From a virus: 25,876 bases of DNA. The position numbers and the translations under genes are program-made. The stretch is from positions 1-25,876 of IMG/VR virus record IMGVR_UViG_3300022851_000098. One strand, given 5' to 3'. Shown here piece by piece: positions 957-22,519 of this stretch. Under the pieces are notes generated by a model. The model was not told the DNA's origin. It ran no database searches and saw only the letters and a program-made list of their open reading frames with translations. How positions within the stretch are numbered: the first letter of the stretch is position 1; every line of letters begins with the position of its first letter.

Positions 957-1898
957 ATGGAGCAGGGTATGGGGAAGGACGCCTACTACAATGAGAATGA
1001 CCCCTTCGCCGCCAAGTGGCTGAGGCAACTCATTAACAAGGGCTTGATCGCACCTGGCGACGTAGACGCCAGGTGCATTACAGAGGTGCAACCAGATGAC
1101 ATCAGAGGCTACAGACAGGTCCATCTTTTCGCAGGTATCGGCGGCTGGTCTTACAGCCTCCGTCAAGCGGGCTGGCCCGACGACCTGCCTGTTTGGACAG
1201 GAAGCTGTCCCTGCCAGCCTTTCAGCGGAGCAGGAAAAGGACTTGGCGTCAAAGACCCCCGACACCTATGGCCTGAGTTCATGCGGCTCATCCGCGAGTG
1301 CCAACCTTCAAGGATATTTGGAGAGCAGGTTGAGAGTGCGATTAGACATGGTTGGCTCGATGGAGTATTCGCAGACCTGGAAGCAGAGGACTACGCCTGC
1401 GGGTCGGTCATACTTGGCGCACACAGCGTCTGCTCGCCGCACATCCGACAGCGGTTGTATTGGGTGGGCGACACCCACAACAAGGGACTGGAAGGACGGC
1501 AATTGCTCAGCGGCCAACGTGCCTGTGAACGCACTCCTGGGCAGGCAGGTAACTGGGACAGCACAGACATCATCACCTGCGGAGACGGGAAGTCGAGGAG
1601 GATTAAACCCGGCATTGCCCCGCTGGTTGATGGGCTACCCCGTGGAGTGGTGCCAGGCAGCTATCGTGGCATGGAGATCAATGCCGACGAATCGGCGGAA
1701 GCCAAAGTAATGCGAATCCGAGGCTACGGAAACGCAATCGTGATCGATTTGGCGGTGCAGTTCATTCTGTCCTGGGCAGAAGCAAGGGAATTAACATGCA
1801 AACTGACAAACTTCCAACCTACAAAGACAACGGCAAGACCTTCATCCCCGGGCTTGACAAAGCCTGGGCCTGTAGGGAAGGCCAGGCATACAGAATAA
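957..1898 (+). CDS. DNA (cytosine-5-)-methyltransferase, phage Dcm-type
   Basis: This enzyme should transfer a methyl group from S-adenosylmethionine to C5 of cytosine in DNA. Motif I is at residues 56-63 (HLFAGIGG). Motif IV is GSCPCQPFS at 82-90 with catalytic Cys86. An EQV sequence replaces the usual ENV of motif VI. Motif VIII is IRQRLYWVG, and motif X is GYGNAIVIDLAVQFI near the end. The region between VIII and X is short for a target-recognition domain. No restriction endonuclease adjoins it, so it is probably a solitary protective methyltransferase. The start is ATG 957 or ATG 969; 969 has the better spaced GGAG. The last 103 nt overlap the next gene, and a 204-codon ORF lies inside in another frame. 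Confidence 0.9.
   Translation: MEQGMGKDAYYNENDPFAAKWLRQLINKGLIAPGDVDARCITEVQPDDIRGYRQVHLFAGIGGWSYSLRQAGWPDDLPVWTGSCPCQPFSGAGKGLGVKDPRHLWPEFMRLIRECQPSRIFGEQVESAIRHGWLDGVFADLEAEDYACGSVILGAHSVCSPHIRQRLYWVGDTHNKGLEGRQLLSGQRACERTPGQAGNWDSTDIITCGDGKSRRIKPGIAPLVDGLPRGVVPGSYRGMEINADESAEAKVMRIRGYGNAIVIDLAVQFILSWAEARELTCKLTNFQPTKTTARPSSPGLTKPGPVGKARHTE
1096..1710 (+). CDS. Overlapping ORF inside the methyltransferase gene, 204 aa
   Basis: This ORF lies wholly within the cytosine methyltransferase gene, in the +1 frame. It has a GAGGTG ribosome-binding-like sequence seven bases before its ATG. The translation contains segments I recall from many phage hypothetical proteins: LFGQEAVPAS, SSASANLQGYLESRLRVRLD, TWKQRTTPAGRSYLAHTASA, RRTSDSGCIGWATPTTRDW and LNPALPRWLMGYPVEW. 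These track the methyltransferase motifs in the other frame; for example, LNPALPRWLMGYP is the shifted reading of KPGIAPLVDGLP. It may therefore be a real dual-coded protein, or a conserved shadow that databases have annotated repeatedly. There is no known function. The sequence is Ser/Thr/Arg-rich with no membrane segment. Confidence 0.4.
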   Translation: MTSEATDRSIFSQVSAAGLTASVKRAGPTTCLFGQEAVPASLSAEQEKDLASKTPDTYGLSSCGSSASANLQGYLESRLRVRLDMVGSMEYSQTWKQRTTPAGRSYLAHTASARRTSDSGCIGWATPTTRDWKDGNCSAANVPVNALLGRQVTGTAQTSSPAETGSRGGLNPALPRWLMGYPVEWCQAAIVAWRSMPTNRRKPK

Positions 1899-5720: not shown

Positions 5721-5901
5721 ACAGAAGGCCGTCAGAGAAACAATCTGGTGGCCTTGCCGATTCACTGGACAGCAGGCAGAGGGTCTGGTAGTGTATAAGG
5801 GTTCTGAGATTCAGTACTGCAATGCCCACAACCTTCTGCATTGGGTTGTTTGCAGTGAGGAATACTTCGAGGCATTCATAAAGAGAAAGGTAGAAGAATG
5901 A
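5695..5901 (+). CDS. Hypothetical protein, 68 aa
   Basis: The start lies 26 nt inside the end of the primase-helicase gene, with GGAG nine bases upstream. The stop overlaps the next start by four bases (ATGA). The small protein has paired Trp and Cys residues (WWPCRFTG near the start and LLHWVVCSEEYFEAF near the end) and a basic C-terminus. This is compatible with a compact beta-rich fold, but no metal-binding pattern is complete. The tight coupling on both sides implies co-translation with the primase-helicase and the methyltransferase. The function is unknown. Confidence 0.65.
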   Translation: MNETLIVDEQKAVRETIWWPCRFTGQQAEGLVVYKGSEIQYCNAHNLLHWVVCSEEYFEAFIKRKVEE

Positions 5902-7100
5902 GCAAACAGGAATACAGTATTATTTGTGGTGATTGTCTTGAGGTGATGCCCACGTTGCCTGAATCCTGTGTGGATTCTATTGTGACCGATCCGCCCTATG
6001 GACTTTCATTCATGGGGAAAGACTGGGACCACGGTGTCCCCGGTGAGCATTTCTGGCGTGAGGCCCTGCGGGTCGCCAAGCCAGGTGCGTACCTGCTGGC
6101 GTTCGGCGGCACACGCACGTTCCATCGCCTTGCAGTTGCGATTGAGGATGCTGGATGGGAACTGCGTGACACGATTATGTGGGTTTTCGGTTCGGGCTTC
6201 CCAAAATCGCATGATGTGTCCAAGGCCATCGGCAAGGCTTTGGGTGCGGAGAGGGAGAAGGTGCCCGCATCAGGCGGACTTCATAACAATAAAAACCTTA
6301 ATGACGATGGGTGGAACAAGATCGGAGCCGATGCCCCGGAGATGGATGGGCCTGATCCAGCCACAGACGACGCGAAGCAGTGGGACGGATGGGGCACTGC
6401 CCTAAAGCCCGCATGGGAGCCGATCATCGTGGCGAGAAAGCCCCTCATCGGAACTGTGGCCGCGAACGTGCTGGCCCACGGCACGGGCGGGCTGAACATC
6501 GACGGGTGTAGGGTCAGCACAAACGGGGAGACAGTACATCTTCCGCAATCTAACCCTCTCAATCGAAAGGGTGTTGTGGGAGAAAAGCACTTCGTCACGC
6601 AGAAGTCTATAGAAGGCATGCACGATGCTCAACGTGAGAGCATCGAACGTACCAACACCCTCGGAAGATGGCCTGCGAACTTCATCCATGACGGGTCCGA
6701 AGAAGTAACTGGCCTGTTGGGAGAGGCTGCCCGTTTCTTCTACTGTGCTAAGTCGAGCAAGAAGGATCGGGATGAGGGATGTGAAGGACTAGAAGACCAG
6801 CGGCGGGGGGCAATGGCAGGGAATGTCGATGATGGCAACTTCCTGACCGGCTCTGGAAATCCCAGACAATCTATGGGAAAGAACTCGCATCCCACAGTGA
6901 AGCCCACGGACCTGATGCGGTACCTGTGCCGCCTCGTCACACCACCCGGTGGGATTGTGCTAGACCCATTCATGGGCAGCGGCAGTACGGGCAAGGCGGC
7001 GGTCCTCGAAGGATTCGACTTCCTCGGCATCGAATTGTCTCAAGAGTACGTTGACATCGCAGAGGCTCGAATAACAGCGGCCTTAGAGGAGGAGAAATGA
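5898..7100 (+). CDS. Beta-class DNA N6-adenine/N4-cytosine methyltransferase
   Basis: The enzyme should methylate an exocyclic amino group in DNA using S-adenosylmethionine. Catalytic motif IV, TDPPYG, is at residues 30-35. The SAM-binding motif lies near the C-terminus (DPFMGSGSTGKAA, 356-368). This order, with DPPY first, defines the beta group. A HPTVKPTDLMRYL segment before it is the usual motif X region. A long middle region (about 110-310, containing GTGGLNIDGCRVS and RWPANFIHDGS) is commonly seen in phage enzymes of this type and should hold target recognition. No cognate nuclease adjoins it. Both ends overlap neighbours by four bases. The chemistry (adenine versus N4-cytosine) and target sequence cannot be read from sequence alone. 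Confidence 0.9.
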   Translation: MSKQEYSIICGDCLEVMPTLPESCVDSIVTDPPYGLSFMGKDWDHGVPGEHFWREALRVAKPGAYLLAFGGTRTFHRLAVAIEDAGWELRDTIMWVFGSGFPKSHDVSKAIGKALGAEREKVPASGGLHNNKNLNDDGWNKIGADAPEMDGPDPATDDAKQWDGWGTALKPAWEPIIVARKPLIGTVAANVLAHGTGGLNIDGCRVSTNGETVHLPQSNPLNRKGVVGEKHFVTQKSIEGMHDAQRESIERTNTLGRWPANFIHDGSEEVTGLLGEAARFFYCAKSSKKDRDEGCEGLEDQRRGAMAGNVDDGNFLTGSGNPRQSMGKNSHPTVKPTDLMRYLCRLVTPPGGIVLDPFMGSGSTGKAAVLEGFDFLGIELSQEYVDIAEARITAALEEEK

Positions 7101-13782: not shown

Positions 13783-13809
13783 AATTTACCTCACTGGAGA
13801 ACCCCCGCC

Positions 13810-15909
13810 ATGAAGGTAGTAGCCTTCGACACAGAAACCCATTTGATCGGGCCGGAGAACATCTTCCCGAAGATGGTCTGCATCACCCTCAGCCAGCTTG
13901 ACACAGAAACCAACGCCACAGAAGGCCCCTTCATCGCTTCCTGCCATGTCGATGACTTCGACGCTCTCTGCGACATTCTCGACAGGATTGACAAAGCCGA
14001 CATGATCGTGGGTCACAATGTGGCCTATGACGTTGGCGTACTGATCCGAGAATTGCCGGACTTCGCTGACCTGCTCTATCAGAAGATGGCGGAAGGCAAG
14101 GTCCAATGCACTCGCATGAACGAGAAGCTGATGAACCTGGCTACCACAGGGTCGCCTTACGGCATCAGCACTCGCAGTTACATCAGCCTCGCTGACTTGT
14201 CCCTCACCTACCTCGGAATTGACATCAGCAGCACCAAGACAGAGAGCGATGCGTGGCGAACCAACTACGACGCTTTGGATGGGATGCCCTTGTCCGAGTG
14301 GCCTGCCAACGCCGTTGAGTATGCACTGGGCGATGCGGACATCACCATGATGGTATGGCACGAGCAACAGAAGGCCGCTGAGAGGATTTCTCAGAAGATC
14401 GGCGTACCTGTCCTCAAGGTAGCGGCCTTCCGTGCTGCCGTGGACTGTGCCTTGAAGCAAACGACCTCCAATGGCATCCATGTGGACGCCGAGGAGAAGG
14501 CAAAGCTCGAACAGGAATACGCTGCTGAGTTGGATGGCCCGCAGGTGGCCCTGCTGATCGAGACAGGAATCCTGCGACCCGCCGAGTCGGAACAGCCCTA
14601 TGCAAACAACGCCAAGAACCCTGATGGCACGACCAAGATGAAGGCTGCTAAACATGCTTCCATCGACACCAAGCGACTCACCAAATATGTCCTCGAAGTG
14701 TGTACCAGACTCAAGATCGAGCCTCTCTACACAGACAAAGGCAAGGTCAGCATCGCCGAGGAGTGGCGAGAGGAACACGCCCACAAAGACCCCGTGCTTG
14801 CGGCCTACGACTTCCGGCAGAAGTTGCAGAAGATGATTACCACAGAAATCCCTCGAATGAACGATGCCGATGGCAACACAGCCAAGATGGTGCATGTGCC
14901 TTTCGATAGCCTGAAAGAGACAGGCAGGTGCAGTAGCTCGGCAGACAAGCTGTTCCCGTCGATCAACGGGCAGAATGTCGATCCTCGGGCCAGGGTGTGT
15001 TACGTCCCTCGACCGGACCACCTGTTCCTGTCACTGGACTACAACCAGATGGAACTCGGCACCGTGGCCCAGGTCTGCCTAAGCGTCTTTGACAAGTCGG
15101 TGCTGGCAGAGACGATCAACGAAGGCATTGACGTACACTCTTACACCGGCAGTCAGCTTGCCTTCAGCATGGATACCACCTTTCAGCAGGAGTGCGTGGA
15201 GAGCAATGCCAACCTGCCGATGGAGGTGTTCGAGGCGTTCAGCAAACACAAGGAGAGCGACCCCGGCTTTCACAAGCACTGGCGAACCTTCGCCAAGCCC
15301 ACGAACCTCGGCTACCCCGGTGGTCTCGGGCCTGAGACCTTCGTTCGCTACGCCAAGACTTCCTACGGGGTCGAAGTTAATCTTGAGCAGGCCACGGAGT
15401 TTCGGACTCTGTGGAAGGACACTTACCCCGAGTTCTGGCAATACTTCGATTGGGTCGGCAATGACCTGAACGACCCCCACAACCCCGATGCCTATGCCTA
15501 CATCACACCGATGGGCATGTACCGTGCCAACTGCACCTTCTGTGCTGCCGCCAACGGTGCTGGTTTGCAGAGTCCTTCTGCTGAGGGTGCATTGGCTGCT
15601 TTGTGGGAAACTGTCAGACGAACCATCTGCAAAGAGACGGATAGTTTGTTGACTGGCTGCCGTGTCGTGAACTTCATCCACGATGAGATTATGCTGGAGG
15701 TGCCGATTCTGCCTAATGAGGACTTGCATAAGATTGCAAAGGAGGTAGAATCAATCATGGTTGAGGCGATGAGAAGGATCACGCCTGACGTAACGCCTCG
15801 ATGTGAGGCAGCATACATGGACAGGTGGTATAAGGAAGCCTCTCCCGTGTATGATGAGAATGGACACCTAACTGTTTGGAGACCAGCAGATGAGCAAAGA
15901 ACCAAGTGA
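13810..15909 (+). CDS. polA: Family A DNA polymerase with 3'-5' exonuclease
   Basis: This is the phage replicative polymerase. The proofreading domain has Exo I FDTET (D7, E9), Exo II GHNVAYDV and Exo III YALGDADITM. The polymerase domain has motif A LDYNQMEL (D410, E415), motif B RTFAKPTNLGYPGG (R492, K496) and motif C IHDE (D625, E626). There is no 5'-3' exonuclease domain, as in most phage enzymes. At the position equal to E. coli Phe762 the residue is Leu500, and the usual O-helix Tyr766 position is Gly. The start is ATG 13810 with TGGAGA upstream; a longer frame from 13732 would read through the terminator. The 3' end overlaps the next gene by 20 nt. Confidence 0.95.
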   Translation: MKVVAFDTETHLIGPENIFPKMVCITLSQLDTETNATEGPFIASCHVDDFDALCDILDRIDKADMIVGHNVAYDVGVLIRELPDFADLLYQKMAEGKVQCTRMNEKLMNLATTGSPYGISTRSYISLADLSLTYLGIDISSTKTESDAWRTNYDALDGMPLSEWPANAVEYALGDADITMMVWHEQQKAAERISQKIGVPVLKVAAFRAAVDCALKQTTSNGIHVDAEEKAKLEQEYAAELDGPQVALLIETGILRPAESEQPYANNAKNPDGTTKMKAAKHASIDTKRLTKYVLEVCTRLKIEPLYTDKGKVSIAEEWREEHAHKDPVLAAYDFRQKLQKMITTEIPRMNDADGNTAKMVHVPFDSLKETGRCSSSADKLFPSINGQNVDPRARVCYVPRPDHLFLSLDYNQMELGTVAQVCLSVFDKSVLAETINEGIDVHSYTGSQLAFSMDTTFQQECVESNANLPMEVFEAFSKHKESDPGFHKHWRTFAKPTNLGYPGGLGPETFVRYAKTSYGVEVNLEQATEFRTLWKDTYPEFWQYFDWVGNDLNDPHNPDAYAYITPMGMYRANCTFCAAANGAGLQSPSAEGALAALWETVRRTICKETDSLLTGCRVVNFIHDEIMLEVPILPNEDLHKIAKEVESIMVEAMRRITPDVTPRCEAAYMDRWYKEASPVYDENGHLTVWRPADEQRTK

Positions 15910-17005: not shown

Positions 17006-17589
17006 AAGTTGCCCTGCACGGAGTCCTTCTGCGACAACTCAGTGGCGAACCGCTGCATCTCTGCCGTGAACGAACCAGCCAAGAACTTCGTGGCGAGTTC
17101 CTGCACTGCCTGCCGGAAAGATTGGTTCTCGAAGAAGGGTCTGGCCGTAGTTGGTCCGACCTTCTTTGCTATTCGCATGGGGCCAACCTGCGGTTGGTCT
17201 GGCTTTCTGCGGCGACCGTAGACCTGCTTCTCAACCTGTCGATTGATCGACATCCAGTAGGCAAACTCCTTGCCAAACAGCCTGCGAACGTCAGCCTTCT
17301 TCTCGGGGGTCTGCCTGCCTTGAAACCTCGGGTCAATGCTCGCAGGCACGAACCACACAAAGTAGATGGTGTTCTGCGGCGTCTTAGCCCCCCGGCCCTC
17401 GTGGACGTAGATGGCCCAATAGTGGGGGATGTGCAGTCGAGAGGAAAGCCCCTCGCCCATCTTTACCCTCAACGCCCTCTGCAATGTCTTGGAGGGGATG
17501 GTGGGTCGCACGGCAACAACAGCCTGCCTGCTCATCTGAGTGAGGCCGTCTCTCAATGCACTATGGAATCGTGGACCTACCCTAGTCAT
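17002..17589 (-). CDS. Minor virion protein, HK97 gp10-like or virion-morphogenesis type
   Basis: This 195-aa minus-strand gene overlaps the portal stop by eight bases (ATGACTAG), so it is coupled to the portal. A central segment (HIPHYWAIYVHEGRGAKTP, then YFVWFVPASIDP) and a late ARPFFENQSF motif resemble head-tail completion proteins of the HK97 gp10 or virion-morphogenesis type. In those families a 'H...V..G' strand region and 'ARPF' near the end recur. It probably works at the neck or head completion stage. The assignment rests on these short patterns and on the portal neighbour. It is basic, with no membrane segment. Confidence 0.55.
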   Translation of the reverse strand: MTRVGPRFHSALRDGLTQMSRQAVVAVRPTIPSKTLQRALRVKMGEGLSSRLHIPHYWAIYVHEGRGAKTPQNTIYFVWFVPASIDPRFQGRQTPEKKADVRRLFGKEFAYWMSINRQVEKQVYGRRRKPDQPQVGPMRIAKKVGPTTARPFFENQSFRQAVQELATKFLAGSFTAEMQRFATELSQKDSVQGNF

Positions 17590-18973
17590 TCTTCAATCCG
17601 TCTTTAGGGTCTCGACCCGAACCCTCCGGCTCTCTCATCCTGGTGCTGGTGTCCATCGCATTGACATCAATGGCGTCAGTGATTCGACGGAAGCTGAAGT
17701 CCTTGGGGGCCAGTCCAAGGCCGCCATTCTTCTTGGGGTTGCCAAGAGTCGCACCAAGCACCTGCTGGAAGTGGACCTGAGCAGGACCGATCACAAGAAT
17801 CTGGAATGCCCTCAGAGCATTCGGCAGTTCGTTGGTCGCACCGAGCTTGCCTGGAATCAGGATGCCTGCAAGCAGGGGAGGCACCTGGTGAGCAGTCACG
17901 ATTCGCATTGCCAGACTGTCTGATGTGGCGGGGAAGAAGTCCTCTCGGGATGAGTCCACACCGAGCTTCTCGATCTGAACTTCGACATTGGAGTTGGAGA
18001 AGTTCAAGGCACAGGACTTGAAGGCATTGCCCGAGCCAATGTTGGCCTTGATGGTATTCTCAACTTTCACCCACTCAGCATCAGAAATAACACCACCCTT
18101 AATGATGATGATAAACTCAGGGACTCCTCGGTTGTTGAAGAAGTCGAAGAAATACTGATCCATCATCTGACCGAGTTCAATACTCGGCACAGCAGAAATC
18201 CACTTGGGGATGCCGTACCACTTGCTCTTGCTGGACGACGACCGGAAGGCAATGATCTCGCTGATGTATCTGACGCCGAGCACTTCGGTAATGGCAGCGG
18301 AGTTACCCGTGGCAGATACGTCCGAGGCATCAAGCAGGTCAGGGTTTCTCTCAAGGAACCCCACAGAGTCCCCAAAGGCAGGCATCTTCAGAGTCCCTCT
18401 CTTCTCTGACTCCACCTCGAAGTGGTGATTCACACCATCCTCCTCTACGAAGGCCCAAACCTTGTGTGCTTGGATGTGATGGACACCCACGATCCGAGAG
18501 TTGCCGTTTTTGCCGTTGGGAAGCTCACGCTTAATCTCCATGTAGGCATTGGCCTTCTTGAAGTAATCCTCTGCGAGATCATTCAAGACACTCTGAGCAG
18601 TCTCCATCGTCAGGGGGTTGAGAATGGTGTCCACGTTGGATGGCTCGAATCCCTTATCAGGCATACCATCCCCGTTTACATCCTTGTCGGACTCCGACAT
18701 GATGCCGAGGCCCACTGTGCTTTTGGCTTTGGCCTCGATGCAGGCTGTGTGGTATGGACTGCTCTCGTCAAACTCGTCCACCACGGACATGCCGAATGGG
18801 TGAGGAACCCTCCCCTTGTTAGACTTGTCAGAGGATGCAGATTCAGAAGGAACATCATAGATTTTTCTAAGGAGACTCACAACCTCTCCGTCCAGTTCCC
18901 TGCGGTAGATGCTGTGTCCTGCGTTGTCTACACGGACAGAAAAGAATCTGGTACTATCTTCTTTGTTGCTCAT
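17582..18973 (-). CDS. Phage portal protein
   Basis: The 463-aa protein should form the dodecameric ring at one head vertex through which DNA enters and leaves. The central block is characteristic of PBSX/HK97-type portals: IIAFRSSSSKSKWYGIPKWI, then SIELGQMMDQYFFDFFNNRG, VPEFIIIIKG, and AHQVPPLLAGI. The chosen start is ATG 18973 with GAGG eight bases upstream; a TTG nine codons earlier is possible but lacks a better signal. It is on the strand opposite the capsid genes, which is unusual, and is divergent from the protease with a 93-bp spacer. No terminase gene is next to it. Confidence 0.9.
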   Translation of the reverse strand: MSNKEDSTRFFSVRVDNAGHSIYRRELDGEVVSLLRKIYDVPSESASSDKSNKGRVPHPFGMSVVDEFDESSPYHTACIEAKAKSTVGLGIMSESDKDVNGDGMPDKGFEPSNVDTILNPLTMETAQSVLNDLAEDYFKKANAYMEIKRELPNGKNGNSRIVGVHHIQAHKVWAFVEEDGVNHHFEVESEKRGTLKMPAFGDSVGFLERNPDLLDASDVSATGNSAAITEVLGVRYISEIIAFRSSSSKSKWYGIPKWISAVPSIELGQMMDQYFFDFFNNRGVPEFIIIIKGGVISDAEWVKVENTIKANIGSGNAFKSCALNFSNSNVEVQIEKLGVDSSREDFFPATSDSLAMRIVTAHQVPPLLAGILIPGKLGATNELPNALRAFQILVIGPAQVHFQQVLGATLGNPKKNGGLGLAPKDFSFRRITDAIDVNAMDTSTRMREPEGSGRDPKDGLKND

Positions 18974-19014
18974 TGCATTTTCCTCGGCTACATCTATCAA
19001 AATGAGGCAATCGA

Positions 19015-20900: not shown

Positions 20901-20915
20901 GACGGCCAGGCCGTC
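20901..20915. other. Inverted repeat before major capsid gene
   Basis: GACGGCC and GGCCGTC flank a single A in the 66-base gap between the decoration and capsid genes. As RNA it could form a 5-bp hairpin with a 5-base loop. It lacks a U-run. It may be a weak attenuator, or chance. Confidence 0.3.
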
Positions 20916-20937
20916 AGAAAACAAGGCGATATACACT

Positions 20938-21993
20938 ATGCCTACTACAGCAGAACTCCTTAACTGGATGACTCTGACGGCCTCTGTCAACGAAATGAAG
21001 CGGCCCAATCAGTTCCTCAAGCGGCTCCTCTACGGCAACCACGAACCCGTGGCTACCGAGAGCATCGAAGTCGGTCTTCTTCAGGAAGATCGTAAGGCTG
21101 CTCCGTTCGTTCGTGCCGGTGCTGAGGCTCTGATGGTGCAAGGACACAGCGATGTGTTCCGCAACATCTCGGCTCCGAACATTCGGATCAAGGCCGCACT
21201 CGATCCCAACAAGCTGATCTCGCAGCGTCGTCCTGGCGACCGCATTTTCGTCAGCGGCAAGTCGGATGTGATTGCATCGGCACAGCGGTACATCACTCAG
21301 ATTCAGCAGGGTCTCGAAGATCAGGTCATCAACGCCGAGGAGTACCTCATCAGTCGCTCCTTGCAGGGCGTGATTTCCTACTCGGTGGCGGATGAAGAAG
21401 TCTTCACCATCACCTTCCCTCGCCCCGCTGCCAACAACGTCACCCTCGATACGTGGTGGGACGATGCTGACCCCGACAACGTGACACTTGAGTTGGACTT
21501 CCATCTCATCAAGTCGCTGGCTTCGGAGACCACCACAGGTCTTCCCCTGACGGATGCGATCATGGGCAGCACCGCTGCCACCGCCTTCCTGAAGCTCGCC
21601 CGGCTGAAGAACATCCCCCTTGGCAATATCAACCAGGGCACCATTGACTTCACCACGCAGTTCAATGAGGATGGTGTGATCTTCCTCGGCACGTTCAGTG
21701 GTGTCCGCCTGTGGCAATACAACCGCAGCGTGATCTTGAATGGTTCGAGCACGGACATGATTCGCACCAACTACGTCGAGTTCATTTCGTCCTCGCCGCA
21801 GACTGAACGGGTGCTGTATTACGGAGCCATCCCTGACATGGACGCCATTGAAAACGGCAACATCGTCAGCGAACGGTTCAGCAAGTCGTGGAAGGTCAGC
21901 GACCCCTCGGCTCGCTACATGCTCGTCCAGTCCCGCCCGCTGCCTGTCCCGCGTCGAGTTGACGCGAGCTTCAGCGTCAAGGTGCTCGCCTGA
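20938..21993 (+). CDS. Major capsid protein, lambda gpE family
   Basis: The 351-aa protein matches the Phage_cap_E (lambda gpE-like) plan. The N-terminal PTTAELLNWMTLTASVNEM and QFLKRLLYGNHEPVATES segment is followed by IEVGLLQEDRKAAPFVRAGA. A middle P-loop-like region (NPNKLISQRRPGDR) and the ETTTGLPLTDAIMGSTAA stretch come next, and the end is SARYMLVQSRPLPVPRRVDA, typical of the family. It should form the icosahedral shell with an HK97 fold. It follows the protease/scaffold and decoration genes in lambda-like order and is followed by a strong terminator. The ribosome binding site (AAGG, 11 bases away) is weak for so abundant a protein. Confidence 0.9.
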   Translation: MPTTAELLNWMTLTASVNEMKRPNQFLKRLLYGNHEPVATESIEVGLLQEDRKAAPFVRAGAEALMVQGHSDVFRNISAPNIRIKAALDPNKLISQRRPGDRIFVSGKSDVIASAQRYITQIQQGLEDQVINAEEYLISRSLQGVISYSVADEEVFTITFPRPAANNVTLDTWWDDADPDNVTLELDFHLIKSLASETTTGLPLTDAIMGSTAATAFLKLARLKNIPLGNINQGTIDFTTQFNEDGVIFLGTFSGVRLWQYNRSVILNGSSTDMIRTNYVEFISSSPQTERVLYYGAIPDMDAIENGNIVSERFSKSWKVSDPSARYMLVQSRPLPVPRRVDASFSVKVLA

Positions 21994-22026
21994 CGTTTGG
22001 TTCTTCGATGTAGAATAGAGACTCAC

Positions 22027-22059
22027 AAAGCGGGAGGGTATTGTTGCCCTCCCGCTTTT
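22027..22059 (+). terminator. Strong rho-independent terminator after capsid gene
   Basis: AAAGCGGGAGGG (22027-22038) pairs perfectly over 12 bp with CCCTCCCGCTTT (22047-22058) around an 8-base loop, ending in TTTT. It should keep capsid-gene transcripts from running fully into the tail genes. Confidence 0.9.
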
Positions 22060-22081
22060 ACGAACAAAGGAAACACCCCCC

Positions 22082-22519
22082 ATGCCTTATGTAGTTGAAC
22101 CCGGTGCCTCGGTCGTCGTCCAGCGAAACGGATACCCCGTGGTCGTTCGCTCCGGTGAGACGATTCCCGACAGTGCCTTGAAGAATGCTGCCGCCCACCT
22201 GAAGTCGGGCTTCGTCCGAAAGGTGAGCGACCGGCAGGCCACAGTTGCAGACAAGTTCGCCCTCACGGGCATCCCTCAGAGGCAGTTAAGCGAGCATGTC
22301 CCTGGCGTCAAGCTCGAAGACACCCTCACCCGAACCAAGGGCGGCTTCATCAACGAGCCGGACGACAAGCCCATCGTGGTCAACACGAAGGACAAGGAGA
22401 AGCCTCCTGTCACCGAGCTTGGTCTGCTGAACGAACAGATCAAGAAGGACCACCCCGGCCTTGGGTCATTCGAGACCATCGAAGAAGCCAGAGCGTTCAT
22501 CGACTCCGAAGACGAGTAA
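22082..22519 (+). CDS. Hypothetical head-tail region protein, 145 aa
   Basis: An AAAGGA ribosome binding site lies nine or so bases before the ATG, just after the capsid terminator. The N-terminus is beta-like (YVVEPGASVVVQRNGYPVVV) and is followed by a helix (DSALKNAAAHLKSGFV). The C-terminal half is charged and probably partly disordered until a final helix (SFETIEEARAFIDSEDE). In many siphophages a small gene at this position encodes a head-tail connector or an unnamed structural protein. The sequence alone does not decide this. It begins a run of closely spaced tail genes. Confidence 0.6.
   Translation: MPYVVEPGASVVVQRNGYPVVVRSGETIPDSALKNAAAHLKSGFVRKVSDRQATVADKFALTGIPQRQLSEHVPGVKLEDTLTRTKGGFINEPDDKPIVVNTKDKEKPPVTELGLLNEQIKKDHPGLGSFETIEEARAFIDSEDE

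Follow-up and report, generated by a model that had tools for sequence, protein, structure and literature searches.

The window analyzed here is a 25,876-base IMG/VR virus record, taken over its full length. On its plus strand, positions 957 to 1898 encode a C5-cytosine methyltransferase of 313 amino acids, which we call alpha. Its sequence matched phrog_363 (E = 4e-67), PF00145 (E = 1.7e-17), and the M.HhaI profile. Reading the sequence directly, we located motif I (HLFAGIGG, 1122 to 1145), motif IV (PCQP, 1209 to 1220), motif VI (GEQV, 1320 to 1331), motif VIII (RQR, 1446 to 1454), and motif X (GYGNA, 1722 to 1736). By motif reading, profile, and fold matches, alpha has the motif content of a large chain, with motifs I to VIII and X. 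It does not have the organization of a canonical single-chain enzyme, in which the target recognition domain (TRD) and motif IX are in the same chain, and its score against the canonical single-chain family TIGR00675 was 43.6 bits, under the cutoff of 100.65.

A second open reading frame, beta, is nested in alpha on the same strand (1096 to 1710), in the +1 frame. Exactly as an earlier note on this DNA had described, it opens with an ATG (1096 to 1098), runs for 204 codons, and is preceded by GAGGTG (1083 to 1088). This ribosome-binding-site-like stretch and start (1083 to 1098) lie inside the alpha coding sequence, with 9 nt from the end of the GAGG core to the ATG. The peptides quoted in the note were found in both frames. 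Its statement that beta covers motifs I to X had to be shortened: because beta stops at 1710, before motif X, it spans motif I to approximately motif IX. Beta matched phrog_1008 (E = 1.4e-26) and also phrog_31772, and it had no matches in Pfam or NCBIfam. The phrog_1008 profile was matched by 47 of 47 aligned homologues.

In canonical C5 enzymes, the TRD lies between motifs VIII and X. Residues 177 to 258 of alpha (1485 to 1730), where a canonical enzyme has this domain, are poorly conserved in the alpha frame. We regard them as a passenger stretch on the basis of the A2 alignment, low pLDDT, and a beta-frame codon-position pattern. In the structure model of alpha, the catalytic domain was folded and matched the fold of M.HhaI; there was no folded recognition domain, and pLDDT was below 50 for most of residues 177 to 258. 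The AlphaFold2 model of beta was poor overall (pTM = 0.25). Its only confidently modeled central part (residues 66 to 115) was a helix (residues 66 to 85) followed by a beta-hairpin (residues 89 to 115), encoded at 1291 to 1440, where pLDDT reached 97. A fold search with this model returned no significant PDB match, and searching PDB sequences with the profile of beta yielded only chance matches to lipases. Given the poor model and the absent PDB match, a TRD-like fold for beta is a candidate only. Beyond the hairpin, alignment identified a recognition-like PTP module, GWATPTTRDWKDG (1462 to 1500), which many relatives repeat. Farther along is a candidate motif IX, LNPALPRWLMGYPVEW (1603 to 1650), which lines up with LHPRECARVMGYPDSY of M.HhaI.

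Elsewhere in the window, the gene for an additional DNA methyltransferase, from a different family (5898 to 7100; phrog_67, E = 1.3e-75), is followed by an exonuclease-like gene. There are also long antisense open reading frames of 411, 472, and 389 codons on the minus strand (13786 to 15021, 17582 to 19000, and 20914 to 22083, respectively). Two of the three face the genes for DNA polymerase and the major head protein. All may be composition effects.

The +1 frame is a selected gene

We evaluated the openness of the +1 frame against a null in which each alpha gene's codons were permuted among synonymous positions, keeping both the protein and its codon usage. The frame was significantly open in the window (p = 0.007) and in 45 of 46 homologues (p < 0.05), while seven other large window genes, put through the same test, gave p values of 0.09 to 0.77. 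Across the 46 distinct homologous loci, the +1 frame was open for 214 to 443 codons, and the encoded beta proteins were only about 33 to 46% identical to the window's beta. The relatives examined for stops within the frame, which the earlier note had named as a sign of a shadow, had none; among the loci listed, +1 stops usually fell before the beta start and after the beta end. Furthermore, the homologous +1 frames resembled the window's beta more than expected from a synonymous-shuffle null (mean z = 5.7).

The note had also proposed that synonymous divergence in the methyltransferase frame should be reduced inside the overlap, and this was borne out. At 4-fold degenerate sites of alpha, divergence was 0.532 outside the overlap versus 0.334 inside, with a minimum of 0.117 in the motif IX stretch that encodes most of LNPALPRWLMGYP; third-position divergence, computed on pairs at 70 to 80% identity, was 0.52 upstream and 0.59 downstream, compared with 0.36 in the core overlap and 0.22 at motif IX, and since the sequence pairs in both tests are non-independent, the evidence lies in the contrast between regions and not in a P value. 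The reduction did not extend over the whole of beta. Divergence at 4-fold sites did not drop over alpha codons 47 to 75, so the N terminus of beta is loosely constrained. Synonymous constraint was little or absent over its first 40 or so residues, and constraint on the +1 frame began at about alpha codon 91.

The internal start was conserved as well. An ATG opening the beta frame with a Shine-Dalgarno (SD) core 4 to 11 nt upstream was present at 35 of 46 loci, compared with 4.6 ± 2.0 expected (null maximum, 12). In the common GAAAGGAGT, the arginine codon was AGG at 19 of 46 loci and the serine codon was AGT at 18 of 46, against a gene-wide usage of about 12%. Beta is a real second gene under selection at the amino acid level, not a shadow of alpha, and its internal start is under selection.

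Distribution and annotation of the overlap

A tblastn search with the +1 protein matched 221 phage records. The overlap was found in phages of enterobacteria, pseudomonads, alphaproteobacteria, cyanobacteria, Paenibacillus, Lacticaseibacillus, and mycobacteria, in keeping with the suggestion that an overprinted gene has been retained across families. At every examined locus with beta, the alpha frame was one base behind it. Within a non-exhaustive set of plasmids, phages, and viral contigs, we found no beta without an adjoining alpha.

GenBank records treat the nested gene inconsistently. Both open reading frames are annotated in Escherichia phages K1G and K1ind2, fTaEco03, Xanthomonas phage PhiXhv-28, and Paenibacillus phage Sitara; only beta is annotated in PMG1, FoX4, and Cr-LKS3, and only alpha in LASTA and epsilon15. 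Names vary too: the nested gene is a "Mte8-like protein" in Escherichia phages K1G, K1H, and K1ind and a "g59 internal gene" in Sitara. Labels for phrog_1008, phrog_31772, and the nested products are limited to "DNA methyltransferase" or hypothetical protein. In Pseudomonas phage PMG1, the N-terminal part of alpha and its remainder are in different frames, with the change near locus position 1470 to 1500, while beta is intact and corresponds to the annotated gene. In a prophage of Escherichia coli ECCTRSRTH03 (locus L147, 1986 to 3155), automatic annotation reports the dual-coding methyltransferase as two pieces, each an "incomplete" pseudogene.

Recognition region and motif IX

We examined which frame selection follows between motifs VIII and X. 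In the window's family (family A), divergence in the recognition region at alpha codon positions 1, 2, and 3 was 0.38, 0.23, and 0.19, which is the pattern of the beta frame. Family B, which is distant from the first, comprises a Shinella plasmid locus (L057) and its relatives; the offset was +1 at 80 of the 81 loci tabulated. There (41 sequences) the pattern was extreme: the corresponding values over codons 241 to 280 were 0.26, 0.08, and 0.01 and 0.17, 0.03, and 0.02, and divergence at 4-fold sites was 0.005 and 0.001. Over the stretch from motif VIII to motif X, third positions of beta are free and second positions are fixed. Because this DNA diverges in the codon rhythm of beta, selection on the recognition region acts in the beta frame.

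Beta contains, in order, the helix and hairpin, then one to several modules of the form [GL][WL]PTPxAxD, then LNPxxxxWLMGxPxxW, the consensus that aligns with motif IX of M.HhaI. The small-chain motif IX was the most constrained stretch of all, and it precedes motif X both in a phage locus with a single-chain enzyme (L177) and in gp76 of Mycobacterium phage Peaches. The same bases read in the alpha frame (RRIKPGIAPLVDGLP) aligned weakly with motif IX of M.HhaI (domain 3, score −3.1). This resemblance to a degenerate motif IX makes it insecure to describe alpha as lacking that motif.

The same modules occur in either frame. In L177, motifs I to VIII, five PTP modules of the kind seen in the window, motif IX, and motif X share a single frame. 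This protein was matched by a beta profile made exclusively from family A, over a region that begins at the modules and takes in motif IX (32.6 bits; single-sequence E = 3e-12). We chose L177 as the single-chain example because all of its motifs are in frame and its motif X is intact. Another candidate, L159, was dropped; its open reading frame passes motif X into unrelated sequence, and an indel or sequencing error could account for its frame. In Peaches, gp77 contains motifs I to VIII, and gp76, one base ahead, contains three PTP modules, motif IX, and motif X. One module, TPRATDGTxGGPNQxG, is in the +1 frame at three window-family loci (L004, L010, and L058) and most actinophage-type loci, and in frame 0 at L177, L178, and L159. 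At the loci Darolandstone and L202, the modules are in +1 but motifs IX and X are in frame 0; L195 and L220 carry modules in the two frames at once. Taken together, L195, L220, L159, L202, and L142 show PTP modules in frame 0 or +1, or in the two frames of a single locus, and the frame of motifs IX and X likewise varies between phages.

These arrangements might reflect a frame-mobile cassette, an idea that we hold tentatively. The specificity region of phage C5 enzymes would favor the +1 frame but be readable in either, and indels could shift modules between the catalytic and beta chains, changing or multiplying specificity; the conserved central part of beta, which overlies motifs where complete streptococcal enzymes retain a +1 frame as well, could then have a second role such as assembly or regulation. 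We also observed HNH-like sequence in the +1 frame, at or just past the site of beta's motif IX, in Komagataeibacter phage phiKX1 (L050, 2490 to 2900) and at L044. Homing-type endonucleases may insert at this site while the alpha frame stays open through it. At L018 and L019, the tail of beta is duplicated.

A probable split methyltransferase

We interpret the locus as a split C5-cytosine methyltransferase encoded in two frames of one stretch of DNA, with beta as a separately started specificity subunit, and we give this reading a probability of roughly 80%. Alpha would be the catalytic chain, carrying motifs I to VIII and X and binding AdoMet. Beta would be translated from the same message, from its internal ATG with its own Shine-Dalgarno sequence, and would supply the functions of the small domain, namely one or more recognition-like modules between motifs VIII and IX, together with motif IX itself. 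Alpha and beta would come together as a single enzyme, methylating the phage's DNA at a specific site. The proposal draws on L177, where the beta modules and motif IX are in one chain with motifs I to VIII and X. We infer that this phage produces the beta protein, that the protein forms a complex with alpha and is needed for activity, and that a target site is recognized. The earlier note had offered beta as a partner or a regulator of the methyltransferase; partner is the best reading, and a regulatory role is not needed.

Nested methyltransferases of this kind are already known from the alpha and beta chains of M.EcoHK31I and from overlaps in streptococcal phages. M.EcoHK31I (YGGCCR) consists of chains of about 309 and 176 residues, compared with 313 and 204 in the window, and its small gene is nested in the large gene in another frame, as in the window. 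Its large subunit has motifs I to VIII and X, and its small subunit has motif IX (PMC3404938); by this published description, it resembles the proposed enzyme of the window in having two chains and in those motif placements. The TRD of M.EcoHK31I was placed in the large chain by prediction (PMC3404938), which tells against our reading of beta; in the window, by contrast, selection between motifs VIII and X follows the small chain's frame. Furthermore, M.EcoHK31I belongs to a restriction-modification system, while the window has a phage gene with no recognized partner nuclease. M.AquI is likewise a natural two-chain C5 enzyme, but its small chain has motifs IX and X (PMC3404938); in the window, motif X stays in the alpha frame, past the beta stop. 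Peaches gp77 and gp76 are nearer to the M.AquI layout than the window is.

Totally overlapping C5 methyltransferases have been described in Streptococcus thermophilus phages of the 5093 group, with reference to pneumococcal phage MM1 and Tn5252 (PMC5601072). As in the window, two products annotated as C5 methyltransferases are encoded by the same DNA in different frames, and we confirmed the +1 offset in phage P0092. In P0092, however, alpha has the full motif set, including motif IX, in one frame. Its +1 product differs from beta in lacking the PTP modules and LNPxxxxWLMG, and the beta profile does not match it. Three streptococcal phage loci (L167, 1501 to 2364; L168, 1534 to 2691; and L169, 1486 to 2568) encode one-frame C5 enzymes with a +1 open reading frame of 141 to 161 codons (p = 0.003 each); these frames have a CSLSDILE motif near the end and are unmatched by the beta profile. 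Since complete streptococcal enzymes keep a long +1 frame, beta-like proteins, in their upstream part, may do more than supply motif IX.

The streptococcal +1 frames, which lie over motifs IV to VIII of enzymes that are complete without them, fit a different account to which we give a small chance: that beta is real and translated but is an independent phage protein, such as a regulator or an anti-restriction factor, overprinted on the methyltransferase. Such independence is at odds with the joining of beta's modules and motif IX to motifs I to VIII in L177 and to motif X in Peaches gp76, and with our failure to see beta without an adjoining alpha among the examined loci. Beta is best read as carrying the recognition region and motif IX, not as an unrelated overprinted protein. 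Ribosomal frameshifting from frame 0 to +1, perhaps with a return, could instead yield a fused polypeptide and leave the beta ATG incidental, and in Peaches the +1 reading does continue directly past motif VIII. We consider this improbable: constraint on the +1 frame starts well upstream of any useful shift point, the ATG and SD core are under selection, and alpha is conserved through motif X. It is most improbable that the methyltransferase protein and its codon usage simply force an open, seemingly conserved +1 frame; although much of beta overlies conserved motifs, which forces some similarity and puts the synonymous-shuffle null itself above zero, all of the frame-specific tests contradict a shadow, and conservation of the module at the protein level holds for whichever frame contains it. 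Preservation of synonymous sites by RNA structure or a regulatory site can be dismissed with similar confidence, since divergence between motifs VIII and X follows the periodicity of the +1 codons.

To our knowledge, outside compact viruses there are few long same-strand overlaps with demonstrable selection on both frames, and a mechanism is available for only a small number of them. Beyond previous single cases, this overlap is under selection and is common to phages of very distant hosts. What is added here is a specificity region in the +1 frame, spread over distant phages, with the same module read in either frame, and the layout is broader and more regular than in the literature that we examined. 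Most likely, the products of the two frames work as a single enzyme, so that the overlap would place its catalytic and specificity functions on the same DNA. This would explain a widely mislabeled phage family whose members are called "DNA methyltransferase" without having catalytic methyltransferase motifs. Gene finders that forbid overlaps would miss or fragment half of an enzyme common in phages, and expression of the annotated open reading frame with recoded codons would destroy its second subunit.
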